From the NCBI GenBank assembly GCA_025655555.1, contig JAHXIQ010000002.1:744001-808000 (forward strand): a DNA stretch of 64,000 nucleotides, in the 5' to 3' direction. A program made the translations under genes and the position numbers. Shown here piece by piece: positions 54,783 to 61,477 of this stretch; position 1 is the stretch's first letter; each line of letters opens with the position of its first letter. This stretch comes from Candidatus Thiodiazotropha sp. (ex Myrtea sp. 'scaly one' KF741663). Lineage in GTDB: Bacteria; Pseudomonadota; Gammaproteobacteria; Chromatiales; Chromatiaceae. The notes below the pieces were generated by a model, which saw nothing but the letters and a program-made list of their open reading frames with translations, was not told the DNA's origin and made no database searches.

Positions 54783-55670
54783 CTAGAATATCCCCGTGAA
54801 GGTAAGCACGGCGATGATGACCAAAAAAACCACCAGAGAACGCCATATGAGGGCCATTGCGGATTGTGGCAAGTGGCTGTAATCCTGCAGGGCTTCATTC
54901 GATTCGTCGAGCAGAGTGTTGAGCCGCATAGCTCCCCCGCCAGTACAGATGAGTGTGCCACTGTTGCTGTCACTGAATTCATCAAAGCGCCGACCCTGGA
55001 AGCTTCTCCAGCCGTAGAGCGCATCCTCAAAGCTGCCGGCGATGGCATAACAGACAGCGGTTACTCTGGCGGGCAGCCAGTCCAGGATGACAACCAGTTG
55101 TTTTGCATTGAGGTAGAAATCCAAGTCGCGGTTGGCATATTCCAGCTGCGGTAATCGAGTGGATAGGCGGTAGAGTAAAGCGCCCATGGGGCCAAGCAGC
55201 AAAAACCAGAAAAGTACCGCAAAGATTCTCTGGTTGGCCTGAAAAAGTGTGCCCTCAGCCACTGCCTGGGAAAGTGCGGGTTCGCTGGTCGGCGGCTCAT
55301 CGCCGATGATCTCCCGTGCAATCTCTTTGATAGATTCGTCGTCACCATCTTCGACAGCCCTGGTATAGGCATCGATCTGACTGTCGAGGTCGTCAGGGCC
55401 TAATGTGTAGAGCAGGACCAGGCCGGCGAATATCACCCCCAGTAGACCAAACATCGTGTTTGCAAATAGCTGTTGAGCTATTCCGGCTAACAGTAGAGGG
55501 GGGAGCAGTAGTGTCACAACCCTCATGATTCCCTGGCGCATCCACGCGGCACTATCTTGCTGTGCAAGCCACTGGCTAAAGCGATCCAGCCAGCGCATTT
55601 GCCGCAGGTGCTGATGATCGAGTAAAAAACGTTCTGCTATCAGGCAGATAAGAATAACCATGAGACTCAT
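54783..55670 (-). CDS. ampE: AmpE-like inner-membrane protein
   Basis: A 295-residue membrane protein of the AmpE/CobD-like family, in E. coli encoded beside ampD and linked to beta-lactamase signalling. Predicted helices are at the N-terminus (SLMVILICLIAERFLL), about 48-68, 70-90, 150-170 and near the C-terminus (LVVFLVIIAVLTFTGIF). The soluble acidic loop TRAVEDGDDESIKEIAREI and the late WRSFQGRRFDEFSDSNSG segment fit the family. It follows ampD by 96 bp on the same strand. Confidence 0.85.
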   Translation of the reverse strand: MSLMVILICLIAERFLLDHQHLRQMRWLDRFSQWLAQQDSAAWMRQGIMRVVTLLLPPLLLAGIAQQLFANTMFGLLGVIFAGLVLLYTLGPDDLDSQIDAYTRAVEDGDDESIKEIAREIIGDEPPTSEPALSQAVAEGTLFQANQRIFAVLFWFLLLGPMGALLYRLSTRLPQLEYANRDLDFYLNAKQLVVILDWLPARVTAVCYAIAGSFEDALYGWRSFQGRRFDEFSDSNSGTLICTGGGAMRLNTLLDESNEALQDYSHLPQSAMALIWRSLVVFLVIIAVLTFTGIF

Positions 55671-55766
55671 CGGGTAAGTGTCGGGTAAATGGTGAAAACT
55701 TTCAAGCCGATCGTGACTGATTCGAACCTGTAATTAAGTTGGATGCGGATATCTAGCAATTTTGCT

Positions 55767-56333
55767 CTACACTGCGCTGGATGAGTCGCTTTCTAAGGAT
55801 GCAATGTAACGAGGCCAGTCAAACAAGGGGCCCGGGTCCGTTTTGCGGTCAGGGGCGATGGAAGCATGGCTGGTAATCCGGGTTCTATCGATAGCCGGAT
55901 AGTGAGTGATAATCGTTTGCGTTGTCTGGGCCAGTGTAGCGTACTGATCATCAGTGAAGGGCATATCGTCAGATCCTTCCAGTTCTATGCCGATTGAGAA
56001 GTCGTTACATTGCTCACGACCACAGTAGCTTGAGATGCCTGCATGCCAGGCGCGTTGATTGAGAGGGACATATTGAATCAGTTGACCATCGCGACGTATC
56101 AATACGTGGCAGGATACCTTCAGCTTGTGTATCTCCCGGAAATAGGGGTGGGCATCGGGATCGAGGCGATTCATAAAAAGATCCTCGATCCAGGGACCGC
56201 CGAACTCCCCTGGTGGCAGACTGATACTATGTATCACCAATAGGTCGATTTGTGAGCTGGCAGGACGGTCATCCCTGTTTTCGCACAGGTGGAGTTCGGC
56301 CTCGTCGAGCAGGATGTCCCGCTGTTGAGTCAA
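55767..56333 (-). CDS. ampD: 1,6-anhydro-N-acetylmuramyl-L-alanine amidase AmpD
   Basis: Cytoplasmic zinc amidase that removes the stem peptide from anhydromuropeptides in peptidoglycan recycling. The 188-residue product has all zinc ligands: H35 (LLVIHSIS), H156 (RITSHASIAP) and D166 (RKTDPGP). E116-region IGIELEG and the SCHVLIRRDG motif are also present. There is no signal peptide, so it is the cytoplasmic AmpD. Its start overlaps the CBS gene stop by 4 bp, which ties cell-wall recycling to the CBS/PII/DUF1538 operon. ampC and ampR are not in the window. Confidence 0.96.
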   Translation of the reverse strand: MTQQRDILLDEAELHLCENRDDRPASSQIDLLVIHSISLPPGEFGGPWIEDLFMNRLDPDAHPYFREIHKLKVSCHVLIRRDGQLIQYVPLNQRAWHAGISSYCGREQCNDFSIGIELEGSDDMPFTDDQYATLAQTTQTIITHYPAIDRTRITSHASIAPDRKTDPGPLFDWPRYIASLESDSSSAV

Positions 56334-56746
56334 GCTGTCTGCCGCTTGCGTTTGAGGCCCTTGAGGACCATGTCGGTATAGCTGACGATCCCCACTACCT
56401 CGCCATTTTCAACTACCGGCGCCCGTGAAAGGTCAAAGCGGCTGAAAATCCTGGCGCAGTAGCGAATGTCCATATCCGGCGATACTGTGAAAGCGGGTTT
56501 GGTCATGATTTCATAGATGTTGACCCTTTCAGGTGCCCGGTCGACTGCCAGTACTTGGCGGGCAATATCAGACAGCATGACCAAACCAAACTCATCATCC
56601 GGATTGCGTTTCTTCACAATGAGACATTTTGTCTCCACATGAAGCATGTTTTTTCCCAATGCGGTCTCCACGGTATCCATACCGTCGACCATGTCGAAAT
56701 CGGGTTTCATGACATCCCTGACCCGAATCACTTGTTCTTCGCTCAT
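56330..56746 (-). CDS. CBS-pair protein
   Basis: A 138-residue soluble protein made of two CBS domains, which usually bind adenine nucleotides as energy sensors. The first CBS is at about 6-70 (VRDVMKPDFDMVDGMDTVE, then GLVMLSDIARQ), the second at about 78-132 (EIMTKPAFTVSPDMDI, then VVGIVSYTDMVLKGL). Its ATG overlaps the PII-like stop by 4 bp and its stop overlaps ampD by 4 bp. No effector domain is fused, so it probably acts on a partner, most simply the DUF1538 membrane proteins. Confidence 0.88.
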   Translation of the reverse strand: MSEEQVIRVRDVMKPDFDMVDGMDTVETALGKNMLHVETKCLIVKKRNPDDEFGLVMLSDIARQVLAVDRAPERVNIYEIMTKPAFTVSPDMDIRYCARIFSRFDLSRAPVVENGEVVGIVSYTDMVLKGLKRKRQTA

Positions 56747-57093
56747 AACTCCTCCTCAATGACCTGTGAGAGTGTCTGGATCTGGTGACTGACACCTACC
56801 GCATCCTCGATGTCGATCTGAAAGGCGATGCCGCTGCCAGGCTGCTCATCAAAATGGCCGGCCTCGGCTATCTCTTCCAGTATCGTACGGCAGAGATGCT
56901 CCTCCACCAGCAGCATGAGCACGTCTCGCTGGGTCTCCAGTGTCAGTCCGAAAAAGGTTTTCGACTGTTGTACGCCTTCGCCCCTGGCTTGGTTTATAAT
57001 TGTTGAACCGGTGGCGCCTGCGGCTCGGGCGGCCTCCAAAACCTTCTCGGTGGTACTGTCCTCCACCAGGGCGATGATGAGTTTAAAGTGCAT
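56743..57093 (-). CDS. Divergent PII-like signal protein
   Basis: A 116-residue protein with the PII ferredoxin-like fold pattern (KLIIALVEDSTTEKVLEAAR at the start). The T-loop area INQARGEGVQQSKTFF lacks the uridylylated tyrosine context of GlnB/GlnK, and the usual TGxxGDGKI B-loop is replaced by EQPGSGIAFQI. It is thus PII-like, not a standard nitrogen regulator, and its ligand is open. It lies 18 bp after the second DUF1538 gene and overlaps the CBS gene. PII-like trimers commonly plug or gate a membrane protein encoded next door, as SbtB and GlnK do, so DUF1538 is the likely target. Confidence 0.8.
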   Translation of the reverse strand: MHFKLIIALVEDSTTEKVLEAARAAGATGSTIINQARGEGVQQSKTFFGLTLETQRDVLMLLVEEHLCRTILEEIAEAGHFDEQPGSGIAFQIDIEDAVGVSHQIQTLSQVIEEEL

Positions 57094-57111
57094 GGTTTGT
57101 ACCTCGAAAAG

Positions 57112-57882
57112 TCATCGATTACGCTTATTAGATCGCCATTCGCTCAATTGTGCATAAGCCATGACGGACATAATGGGAAACAGGCTGGCAAAGGCTATCA
57201 GGCCAAAGCCGTCCAATAAGGGATTCCGACCGGGGATATTGCTCGATAGCCCTAGACCGAGAGCAGCGACCAGGGGTACGGTAACGGTGGATGTGGTGAC
57301 ACCACCGGAGTCGTAAGCCAGTGCAATGATGGTGCGGGGTGCATATAGAGTTTGCACGATCACCACAACGTAGCCGGTCATGATGTACCAATGCAGTGGG
57401 GTGCCACTGATGATGCGGTAACTGCCGATGGCAATCCCTACTGCGACACCGATGGCTACCGCAATACGTAACCCCCACTGGCTGATCGCGCCACCTGAGA
57501 CCTGGTTGGCCTTGATCGTCACGGCAATCAACGATGGTTCGGCAATAGTTGTGGAAAAACCGATGCTGGCGGCAAACAGATAGACCCATAAGTAGTGATG
57601 CCACTCCACTTCCTGCATATTTGGGCTGATGCCTAGAAACTCCGGTGAGGTGAGCTGGGAAGCCATCAGTTTTCCCAGAGGGAAGAGCGCAAGATCCAGT
57701 CCCTCAAGAAACAGCACAAGCCCTAACAGCACCATAAGGAGGCCGATCAAAACCTCTTTTGGGTTTTTCAACGGCCGTCTGAGTACCAAAAACTGGAAAC
57801 CGAAGAGAATACCGGCAATGGGCAGTACATCGAGCAATGTACCGGTCAGGACCTGAAGAAAATGCGTCAGCAGATCATTCAT
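57112..57882 (-). CDS. DUF1538 family membrane protein, second of tandem pair
   Basis: A 256-residue polytopic membrane protein with about seven hydrophobic segments. Conserved features are [29 protein letters not shown], then [26 protein letters not shown], and [20 protein letters not shown]. The two TT-containing motifs (TTIAEP and [10 protein letters not shown]) sit in matching halves and may reflect an internal duplication with re-entrant loops, as in some transporters. Its ATG overlaps the first DUF1538 stop by 4 bp. Function of the family is unknown; transport is inferred. Confidence 0.85.
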
Positions 57883-58610
57883 AGCAGGATGCCGTAACCC
57901 ATGACAAAGATCATCGGAGTGAGGGAGGCGAATGCAATCAGCCCGAAACCATCGATCATGGGGTTACGTCCCTTAATACTCGATGCCAGCCCCACCCCCA
58001 GTGCGGTGACTAACGGAACGGTGATGGTTGATGTGGTGACTCCGCCAGAATCGTACGCGATACCGATGATCTCTTCCGGGGCGAGGGCGGTCATGAGCAC
58101 AACGCCCAGATACCCACTGATGATCAGATATTGTACAGGCCACCCCTTGATAATACGCAGGACACCCAGCACGATGGCGAACCCCACCGAGACGGCCACT
58201 GTGTAGCGAAGGCCGTTTGCGTAACTATCTTCAGATTGCTGATTGTCTTCAATCATGCCCCCAGTTGCTGCGATTTTCGCTGCTTCTTCGGCGATTTTGA
58301 TTAACGCGGGTTCTGCTACCGTGGTTCCGAATCCGAGTGCAAAAGCAAACAACAGCAGCCAATTCAGGCTACCCTTGCGAGCGAAATCCCAAGCCATGCT
58401 TTCGCCAAGTGGAAATAGTGCCAGATTCAACCCCTGGATGAAGAGGCTCAGGCCCAGGACGACGAGTAGCGTGCCAACCAGCAGTACGCCCAAATTGGGT
58501 ATGGGTTGTTGTAGTATGAAGATCTGAAAAAAACCAATGACAGCGACAATCGGCGTTAGGTCACGGAGGCTATCCAGAAGGGATGCGGCGAAGTGCCTGA
58601 GCAAGCGCAT
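57879..58610 (-). CDS. DUF1538 family membrane protein, first of tandem pair
   Basis: A 243-residue paralogue of the next gene: [49 protein letters not shown] and [20 protein letters not shown] match it position by position. Between the TTVAEP motif and the next helix it has an extra hydrophilic insert (about 25 residues around [13 protein letters not shown]). ATG 58610 ([12 protein letters not shown]) begins the conserved part; an upstream in-frame start at 58724 adds a Cys-rich segment unlike the family. No clear Shine-Dalgarno sequence, so the start is uncertain. First gene of the operon running to ampE. Confidence 0.83.
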
Positions 58611-59137: not shown

Positions 59138-61477
59138 ATGCCAGGTCAAGACAACATAATTACTTTCGGCTCAGCAGTGCCTCGTCGAAGCAACATCTCT
59201 CTTGATGTCAATGGGCGTCGGATTGCGGCTGAGTGCCGTAAACTGATTGCTCTGACCCTCCCAAAGTTAATGGGCGGCCTGTTCGAAAATCTCGATGATG
59301 CACTCTACGAGATGGCCAATAAGTCTGATAGCAATACGCTGCAGAATGTCTACTTCGATTCCATGCGCGAGCTGCGCAAGCAACGAAATAACATTGATCG
59401 CTCGTTCAATCAGGAGATATTGCGGATTTATGATCGCTTCTGGGAGACGGGTGAGGTCAGCGTTTCTCAACCCAGCCTCGATGAGCTAAGCCGAGATACT
59501 GAGATGGCGTTGCTCGACGATGAGGAGCTTGAGGACTCTCTTGCCATCACCAATATGGTCTCCAAGGCAGAGAACCGCTTCACCCGTGAGCTTTATGCTA
59601 TGGGCCAGCGATTTGCCTACATCATCGGTGGTGGACGCATTGATGAACGTTTTGCACAACAGTCACCATTATCGCCAGCGGTCCTTTGTGGCGCCTTTCA
59701 AGTCGCGATGAGTAGTGTGCCGGTCGAGTTGCCGGTCAAGCTGGTTGTCTACAAGCTATTCGATCGGCACATCATGCATTTCATTGGCGGGCTGTATGAC
59801 GAAATCAACATCCTGCTGGGTCAAGCGGGTGTTATTCCCAAGCTGACACCAAAAGTCCGACGTAACCCGGTTTCACCTGCAATGGTGCGTGGGGATGGAG
59901 GGGAAAGCCAACTGGCAGGAGAATCTTCCTATCTGGCAGATCCAGCAAGTCAATCGGCATATACCACCCCAACACAGGCCGCCGATGTCCAAGGTGAGGT
60001 GTTTGCGGCTTTGCAGCAGTTACTGGGTGTCAGGCGTACTCGGGTTCCCGATGGGATGACTGCTTCCAGTCTGATGGTCACTGCCCCGGTAGGTACAGTG
60101 CCGGTGATCGATACCGGAGAGTTGCTGGGTGCGCTAAATGCGATTCAGCAGTCCAATGTGGTGATGTTGCCTCAGGGGCGCCGTGTCACACAGGCCTTAA
60201 GCCCCGATCAGATGCGTGCGCAGCTGGTCAGTGATCTGCAGATTGCTTCCGATGGTCATGTCACTCGGGCACTGGGCGATGCTGACAATGACACTATTGA
60301 TGTCATCTCCATGCTGTTCGAATTTATCCTGGACGACTATAGCCTGCCGGATGCCATGAAGGCGCTCATCAGTCGTCTCCAGATACCGATGCTCAAAGTC
60401 GCCATCATCGACAAGAGCTTTTTCAGTAAGAAAGTGCACCCTGCCCGACGTCTGCTCAATTCGCTGGCACAGGCTGCCGTGGGTTGGAATGATACGGGTG
60501 ACAGGGCAAATGATGTTCTCTACATAAAAATAGAGTCTATCGTAAAACGGGTGCTGAACGATTTCCAGGATGATCCTGCGCTCTTCTCCGAGTTGGACGA
60601 TGAGTTCAGTGCCTGGTGGCAACAGGAGCAACGCGGGGCGCAGATTGCCGAGCAGCGCACCAATCAGGTGACTCGGGGCAAGGAGCAGCTCAGATCAGCA
60701 AAACAGACTGTTGTTTCCGAGTTAAACAAGCGGCTGGATTCACAACAGGTGCTACCTGAAGCCGTAATGGCTTTGTTGGAGGATGGCTGGAAGGACGTAC
60801 TCTTGTTGAACTATCTGCGTCAGGGCGCTGACAGTAAGGAGTGGCGGGAGTCTCTAGAGATTGTCGATCGCCTATTGTGGAGCGTTCAACCTAAGTCTGA
60901 CTATGCAGAGCGTCAGCAACTACTGCGAGGAATACCGGAACTGTTGAGGAATTTGAGAGAGCGACTCAACAGCATCTCGTTCGATCAGCACAAGATGGCG
61001 CGTCTGTTTAAAGAGTTGCAAAACTGCCATATAGGATGCCTCAGGGGCGGTGATCCGAATCTCATGGGTGGTGCGGGTACCAATCCTTCTGTATCCCATG
61101 AAGTGCATTTTCCCGATAGTCAGATTGTGTCCGCTGACAGCACCATGCGTCAGGCGGCTGATGACGCTGTCGATGAACACGATGAGTTCTCCTTGCAGGC
61201 AGGCGATTTGGAAATCGGTACCTGGTTGGAGATGCAGGATGGCTCGGTAAAGAACCGGGTCAAACTCTCCTGGAAAAGCAAGGTGACCGATACCTACATC
61301 TTCGTCAATCGCAAGGGTATGAAGGCGATGGAATTGACCACTGCCGGTCTGGCGAAGCGCTTTCGCGATGAGACGGCCAAACTGGTAGAGGTATCCGACA
61401 CACCGATCATTGATCGTGCGCTGGATGCCATGCTCACCGCATTGAAGAATACGGCTGCTTCCACTGCTTCGGCCTGA
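59138..61477 (+). CDS. DUF1631 family protein
   Basis: A 779-residue soluble protein with no signal peptide or membrane helix. It has the layout of DUF1631 proteins: a helical N-terminal part (TLPKLMGGLFENLDDALYEM), a middle part with VISMLFEFILDDYSLPDAMK and LISRLQIPMLKVAIIDKSFF, then HPARRLLNSLAQAAVGW. It ends in a small beta-rich domain (about 690-760) with LEIGTWLEMQDGSVKNRVKL, KVTDTYIFVNRKGMKAMEL. That last domain resembles PilZ-type barrels, but no RxxxR motif was seen, so c-di-GMP binding is not claimed. No good ribosome-binding site precedes ATG 59138. Function unknown. Confidence 0.85.
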   Translation: MPGQDNIITFGSAVPRRSNISLDVNGRRIAAECRKLIALTLPKLMGGLFENLDDALYEMANKSDSNTLQNVYFDSMRELRKQRNNIDRSFNQEILRIYDRFWETGEVSVSQPSLDELSRDTEMALLDDEELEDSLAITNMVSKAENRFTRELYAMGQRFAYIIGGGRIDERFAQQSPLSPAVLCGAFQVAMSSVPVELPVKLVVYKLFDRHIMHFIGGLYDEINILLGQAGVIPKLTPKVRRNPVSPAMVRGDGGESQLAGESSYLADPASQSAYTTPTQAADVQGEVFAALQQLLGVRRTRVPDGMTASSLMVTAPVGTVPVIDTGELLGALNAIQQSNVVMLPQGRRVTQALSPDQMRAQLVSDLQIASDGHVTRALGDADNDTIDVISMLFEFILDDYSLPDAMKALISRLQIPMLKVAIIDKSFFSKKVHPARRLLNSLAQAAVGWNDTGDRANDVLYIKIESIVKRVLNDFQDDPALFSELDDEFSAWWQQEQRGAQIAEQRTNQVTRGKEQLRSAKQTVVSELNKRLDSQQVLPEAVMALLEDGWKDVLLLNYLRQGADSKEWRESLEIVDRLLWSVQPKSDYAERQQLLRGIPELLRNLRERLNSISFDQHKMARLFKELQNCHIGCLRGGDPNLMGGAGTNPSVSHEVHFPDSQIVSADSTMRQAADDAVDEHDEFSLQAGDLEIGTWLEMQDGSVKNRVKLSWKSKVTDTYIFVNRKGMKAMELTTAGLAKRFRDETAKLVEVSDTPIIDRALDAMLTALKNTAASTASA

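Follow-up and report, generated by a model that had tools for sequence, protein, structure and literature searches.

Two kinds of described systems come close to the genes analyzed here. The first is UmpAB of Halomonas zhaodongensis, an antiporter that exchanges Na+, Li+, and K+ for H+ and whose two DUF1538 subunits associate as a heterodimer when in the E. coli membrane (PMC5484666). The second comprises PII-fold proteins encoded beside a membrane transporter, such as GlnK with AmtB and SbtB with SbtA (PMC10710835, PMC13249358). In the excerpt of the review used here, AmtB, SbtA, and some ABC importers are described as inhibited by PII proteins, and SbtB is said to act in its AMP-bound form (PMC10710835). 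Here, we investigated a 64,000-nucleotide stretch of Candidatus Thiodiazotropha sp. DNA (contig JAHXIQ010000002.1, positions 744,001 to 808,000; hereafter the window), in which genes resembling both systems occur together. On its minus strand, the gene order is umpA-umpB-PII-like-CBS pair-ampD-ampE.

On the strength of the observed gene order, conservation, co-occurrence, residue changes, and predicted folds, we think that the functional unit is probably umpA-umpB-PII-CBS, in which a dedicated PII protein, often together with an adenylate-type CBS sensor, gates a cation/proton antiporter.

The locus and its conservation

The umpA-like gene (57879..58610, 243 amino acids) and the umpB-like gene (57112..57882, 256 amino acids) are followed by genes for a ump-type PII-like protein (56743..57093, 116 amino acids) and a stand-alone CBS pair (56330..56746, 138 amino acids), all on the minus strand. 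Both transporter subunits belong to the DUF1538 family (PF07556, 228.5 and 232.3 bits against a gathering cut-off of 22.6), and the two small proteins score above the Pfam cut-offs for P-II (PF00543, 48.2 bits against 25) and CBS (PF00571, 66 bits against 24). The first-pass annotation of this DNA had described the same set, a DUF1538 pair, a PII-like protein, a CBS pair, ampD, and ampE, and the Pfam and NCBIfam matches bear it out. Its account of the junctions holds for the ATGA overlaps between umpA and umpB and between the PII and CBS genes, and for the 18-bp gap from umpB to the PII-like gene; the CBS-ampD overlap, given as ATGA, is instead TTGA, with ampD starting at TTG. Promoter-like and terminator-like sites fell within the range of shuffled sequence, and an Rfam search returned no match up to E 1. 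The source genome has no DUF1538 matches besides umpA and umpB, and it has three PII matches: the ump-type protein and two canonical ones, one of which adjoins an amtB-like gene (names by reading). By UmpB, the nearest named relatives are Candidatus Thiodiazotropha at 82-87% identity, among the best 80 of at least 588.

Three sets of loci were compared. The phylum sample comprises 398 Pseudomonadota genomes, 126 of them with DUF1538, from which 60 loci were drawn among the best-scoring DUF1538 matches listed, one per genome and with different families favored; divergent DUF1538 forms are under-represented in it. The named-genome set consists of the best 80 of at least 588 relatives by UmpB, and so of near relatives, and the plasmid set of four loci from the seven plasmid records found. 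As judged with a PII profile, the gene immediately after umpAB encodes PII in 56/60 phylum-sample loci (54 scored by script, together with L045 and L062, where a second ump copy follows), 79/80 named loci, and 4/4 plasmid loci, for an overall count of 139 adjacent pairs among 144 loci. A CBS gene is found at the ump locus in 40/60 phylum-sample loci (39 by script plus L045), 78/80 named loci, and none of the four plasmid loci; in one locus with PII (L157), the contig ends 468 bp after umpB, and the CBS gene is not judgeable. PII is thus the steadier partner of umpAB, with the CBS gene as an optional extra. In 72/80 named and 32/60 phylum-sample loci, the PII and CBS genes share a 4-bp stop/start overlap, and 3/80 and 21/60, respectively, have no adjacent PII-CBS pair. 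The relative nearest to the characterized UmpB model (470 bits, NF041628) has PII and CBS genes downstream as well. Because it recurs in most of the relatives sampled, the four-gene arrangement is not due to chance, and the conserved neighborhood supports the earlier suggestion of a two-subunit DUF1538 transporter with its own PII and CBS proteins. PII and CBS matches were not found in one reading frame in any of 145 loci, so no fusion offers proof of contact between them.

Co-occurrence at the genome level gave the same partnership. Among the 398 genomes, 120 have both DUF1538 and a ump-type PII, 267 have neither, six have DUF1538 only (G172, G218, G236, G245, G272, and G281), and five have a ump-type PII without a DUF1538 match (G022, G117, G129, G145, and G181), with a Fisher value of 4e-87 that ignores shared ancestry. 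The ump-type PII count (125/398 genomes) is defined by the PII profile at E 1e-12, and 20 of the 125 depend on weak matches (best E 1e-13 to 1e-17). Six such loci were fetched (L190-L195), and the PII gene lies beside a divergent DUF1538 gene in all of them. Three of the plasmid loci are clostridial and carry a fused DUF1538 of about 500 amino acids; in two of these three, the PII is in tandem, with both halves of the gene matching. Directly upstream of umpA in L069 (8309-10913), and also in L070, lies a pair of CNNM/CorC genes that encode CBS domains (by Pfam for L069 only) and perhaps replace the small CBS protein.

The DUF1538 transporter

DUF1538 was taken to be of unknown function in the first-pass annotation. 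That label is overtaken by the work on UmpAB (PMC5484666): DUF1538 is not uncharacterized, as this pair of DUF1538 proteins is a Na+(Li+,K+)/H+ antiporter. Like UmpAB, the window encodes adjacent, homologous DUF1538 subunits with overlapping gene ends (50% identity between the two in our alignment), and their best NCBIfam matches are UmpA (NF041627, 379 bits) and UmpB (NF041628, 353 bits). The published activity came from a 4.2-kb clone with one truncated open reading frame (ORF) and three intact ones, ORF3 and ORF4 being umpAB (PMC5484666). That activity therefore did not depend on an intact PII or CBS gene, which is what one would anticipate for inhibitors. The terms PII, P-II, and CBS are absent from the main text of that paper, and a search of the open-licence literature, with subscription papers and preprints outside it, found no paper linking DUF1538 or UmpAB with PII or CBS.

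The single-chain AlphaFold2 (AF2) model of UmpB (pLDDT 90.7, pTM 0.83) has one helix break near residues 114-115 and another near residues 199-200. Seven charged residues, D18, E115, R139, R156, D191, R219, and D224, are invariant in 40/40 UmpA and UmpB rows, and E115 falls in the first break. A Foldseek search of the model against 350,542 PDB chains gave no match at E <= 0.001, with a best query-normalized TM-score of 0.23 among the 50 matches listed, and a viral structure library likewise gave none at E <= 0.001. On the basis of the model, we provisionally regard UmpB as a new fold. The transporter differs from AmtB and SbtA in being of cation/proton antiporter type and in having no PDB match at that threshold. 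Viral-contig scans aimed at further phyla found no relative.

Fused forms of DUF1538 are present in other families too. In one gammaproteobacterial metagenome-assembled genome, a natural UmpA-UmpB fusion of about 558 amino acids (start assumed; L128, 3101-4774) still has PII and CBS genes downstream. A divergent fused DUF1538 (567-601 amino acids in six, with a shorter frame in L194) adjoins a ump-type PII in L190-L196, loci chosen for their PII match.

The PII-like protein, the CBS pair, and the proposed mechanism

Besides its Pfam score, the PII-like protein is placed in the PII superfamily by Foldseek matches to PII structures with a probability of 1.00. Its single-chain AF2 model has a pLDDT of 78, with residues 37-45 below 50, so that the T-loop is unreliable. 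The model matches GlnK, SbtB, TTHA0516 (2cz4), and CPII (5d4o) about equally well; TTHA0516 is also a sequence match, while CPII is not among the named sequence matches.

We then compared 71 ump-type PIIs with the source genome's own GlnB and GlnK, in an alignment that is uncertain over the T-loop. T29 and G35 are kept in all 71, G37 in 68, G87 in 64, and G89 in 70. In contrast, K90 is replaced by I, V, L, or M and R101 by G in 71/71, K58 falls within a five-residue T-loop deletion in 71/71 (subject to the T-loop alignment), R103 is variable, and Y51 is present in at most 4/71. We take K58, K90, R101, and R103 to be ATP/2-oxoglutarate residues and Y51 to be the uridylylation site. The window protein has none of the five and is not a canonical GlnB or GlnK, in agreement with the first-pass observation that it departs from the nitrogen-regulator pattern. 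Its T-loop (ARGEG...TFFGL) is shorter than that of GlnK or SbtB, and the motif TF[FLM]GL recurs in 61/71 ump-type PIIs. Nor is it an SbtB: its sole cysteine lies in LCRTILEE, its neighbor is UmpB rather than SbtA, and it lacks the C-terminal CGPxGC redox loop described in the excerpt of the SbtB paper used here (PMC13249358). The added CBS protein is a further difference from both systems. Overall, the residue pattern fits a nucleotide site with a weakened hold on phosphate.

The closest solved relative of the CBS pair is the cyanobacterial CBS-CP12 protein (5nmu; 127.8 bits by profile, 71 bits by single sequence), which aligns over residues 6-130 of the 138; the CP12 domain itself is absent from the window protein. 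CBS-CP12 binds AMP. The adenylate-binding ribose motif of CBS domains is, we assume, G-h-h-T/S-x-x-D. Among 49 sequences, the second CBS domain has G119 in 49, S or T at 122 in 38, and D125 in 29, and the first has G54 in 49, D60 in 43, and T at 57 in eight.

Could the ligand of the PII-like protein instead be a non-adenylate, for instance bicarbonate or an ion, so that Na+/H+ exchange is tied to CO2 or pH? The absence of K90 and R101 from all 71 ump-type PIIs compared would suit such a ligand, the fold matches include CPII with ADP, AMP, and bicarbonate bound, and DUF1538 is among the top 20 Pfam features of a model of optimal pH in the part of that study used here (PMC13255231). However, the fold matches fail to separate CPII from GlnK or SbtB. 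The partner CBS pair, moreover, is nearest to the AMP-binding CBS-CP12, and we regard this explanation as rather improbable. Far less probable still is cyclic di-AMP as the ligand of both sensors, on the model of the Gram-positive PstA/DarA and CbpB, which combine the same fold pairing with a potassium-related target. The CbpB model NF041630 is matched weakly (E 0.015). However, diadenylate cyclase (PF02457) has no matches in the source genome, whereas 11 of 14 control genomes were positive, and we reject cyclic di-AMP as the ligand in this host because of that absence.

The mechanism that we favor, PII gating of the antiporter, would operate as follows. A trimer of the PII-like protein would dock on the cytoplasmic face of UmpAB via its short T-loop and keep the transporter inactive, as GlnK does with AmtB and SbtB with SbtA. 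A small ligand would set the state of PII, probably a low-phosphate nucleotide (AMP or ADP), given that the protein retains the loop glycines but has lost K90 and R101, which grip the phosphates. Where present, the CBS pair would be a second adenylate-type sensor working with PII. The likely purpose would be to halt proton-consuming ion exchange when cell energy is low, making PII an energy-state brake. In this scheme, transport activity is taken over from the paper on the homolog, and the trimer, binding, inhibition, ligand, and purpose are inferred. A PII brake is consistent with the published antiporter being active from a clone without these neighbors.

Weight of the proposal and flanking genes

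Several points weigh against this proposal. A difference from the characterized UmpAB is that neither window protein reaches its NCBIfam equivalog cut-off (490 bits for UmpA, 500 for UmpB), and because of this Na+(Li+,K+)/H+ antiport by the window pair is likely, not established; the cut-off of 500 is also missed by 20/20 further phylum-sample UmpBs and exceeded in 0/369 genomes of the class. Only part of the ribose motif is conserved, and the first CBS domain lacks its T/S in at least 34/49 sequences, where position 57 is L, M, V, or R. The review excerpt states that PII use is apparently restricted to transporters able to act as trimers (PMC10710835), which counts against gating here because UmpAB is described as a heterodimer, and among the PII rows of the review's table covered by that excerpt there is no cation/proton antiporter. 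The open-licence literature yielded no data on interaction, ligand, or transport for this PII or this CBS protein. Beyond Pseudomonadota, the support consists of the three clostridial plasmid loci. No PII gene is adjacent in four of the 60 phylum-sample loci (L066, L067, L068, and L070) and one of the 80 named loci (L129). The genomes of L066, L067, and L068 have a ump-type PII on another contig, in that of L070 PII adjoins an additional ump copy, and in L129 an unrelated ORF follows the ump pair before the contig ends.

Finally, ump-type PII also lies beside genes for malic enzyme/phosphotransacetylase, ETF-ubiquinone oxidoreductase, Dus, or an amino-acid kinase in some genomes, and because it is found away from umpAB there, it may have other targets. 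In L183 and L184, the gene directly upstream of a PII-CBS pair, on the same strand, encodes malic enzyme/phosphotransacetylase (by Pfam in L184, by reading in L183), and the ump pair of these genomes is on another contig. An ETF-ubiquinone oxidoreductase gene follows the PII gene in L188, L197, and L198 (Pfam for L188 and L198, reading for L197), and in L053, L055, and L063 similar ORFs, by reading, come after the ump operon. In L187 and L189, the PII gene adjoins Dus, and L189 has a sigma-54 response regulator further on, resembling a dus-ntrBC operon. In L182 (5900-8015), whose genome has no DUF1538 match, the PII gene and an amino-acid kinase gene (ArgB-like by reading) are divergently oriented. 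Such placements would suit an arrangement in which PII and CBS share a transcript with umpAB but regulate different proteins, such as enzymes of central carbon metabolism or electron transfer, and report ionic or energy state instead of gating the antiporter. However, these cases are few, against umpAB upstream of PII in nearly all of the loci counted, including the three clostridial loci with fused UmpAB. We consider this alternative unlikely.

Downstream of the CBS gene, on the same strand, lie ampD (55767..56333, 188 amino acids), which encodes a 1,6-anhydro-MurNAc-L-alanine amidase (NF008758, 273.9 bits against a cut-off of 143), and, after a 96-bp gap, an ampE-like gene (54783..55670, 295 amino acids; PF17113, 55 bits against a cut-off of 21). 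The AmpE-like protein belongs to the CobD/CbiB superfamily, whose models outscore those of AmpE in Pfam (PF03186, 65 versus 55 bits) and in NCBIfam (137 versus 112 bits, both under the cut-offs). Upstream of umpA and divergent from it are genes for DUF1631 (59138-61477) and nadC (61927 onward, named by reading). The first-pass annotation tied the output of the system to muropeptide recycling through AmpD and AmpE, and the TTGA overlap in the window, together with ampD as the next gene in 19/80 named loci, would agree with such coupling. However, ampD is downstream in none of the 60 phylum-sample loci, and the ump neighborhood is kept across distant genomes with or without it, as the first-pass annotation had proposed to check. 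Divergent nadC and/or DUF1631 accompany 18 of the 19 named loci with ampD (L137 has neither), versus one of the 61 without ampD (L156, with nadC; DUF1631 is in none), and in E. coli K-12 nadC is directly divergent from ampD-ampE with no gene between. The ump operon lies in the old nadC/ampD gap of one set of lineages. Because ampD is almost confined to loci with nadC or DUF1631, its link to ump is one of synteny, and ampD and ampE are probably bystanders, co-directional but outside the module. We reject muropeptide coupling, which we find hardly credible, as synteny explains the linkage better.

If PII gating of UmpAB is true, PII proteins, best known from nitrogen and carbon uptake, would also govern sodium, potassium, and pH balance, and their role would extend to marine, symbiotic, and gut bacteria. 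We lean slightly toward the broader statement that DUF1538 transporters are PII-gated as a rule in at least two phyla. No earlier family of cation/proton antiporters would then have had a PII regulator of its own, and this one would combine a fold without a PDB match, a PII ligand site rebuilt as the phosphate-binding residues were lost, and, in many Pseudomonadota, a co-translated CBS sensor. The absence of a PDB match for UmpB makes the DUF1538 family a target for structural work.

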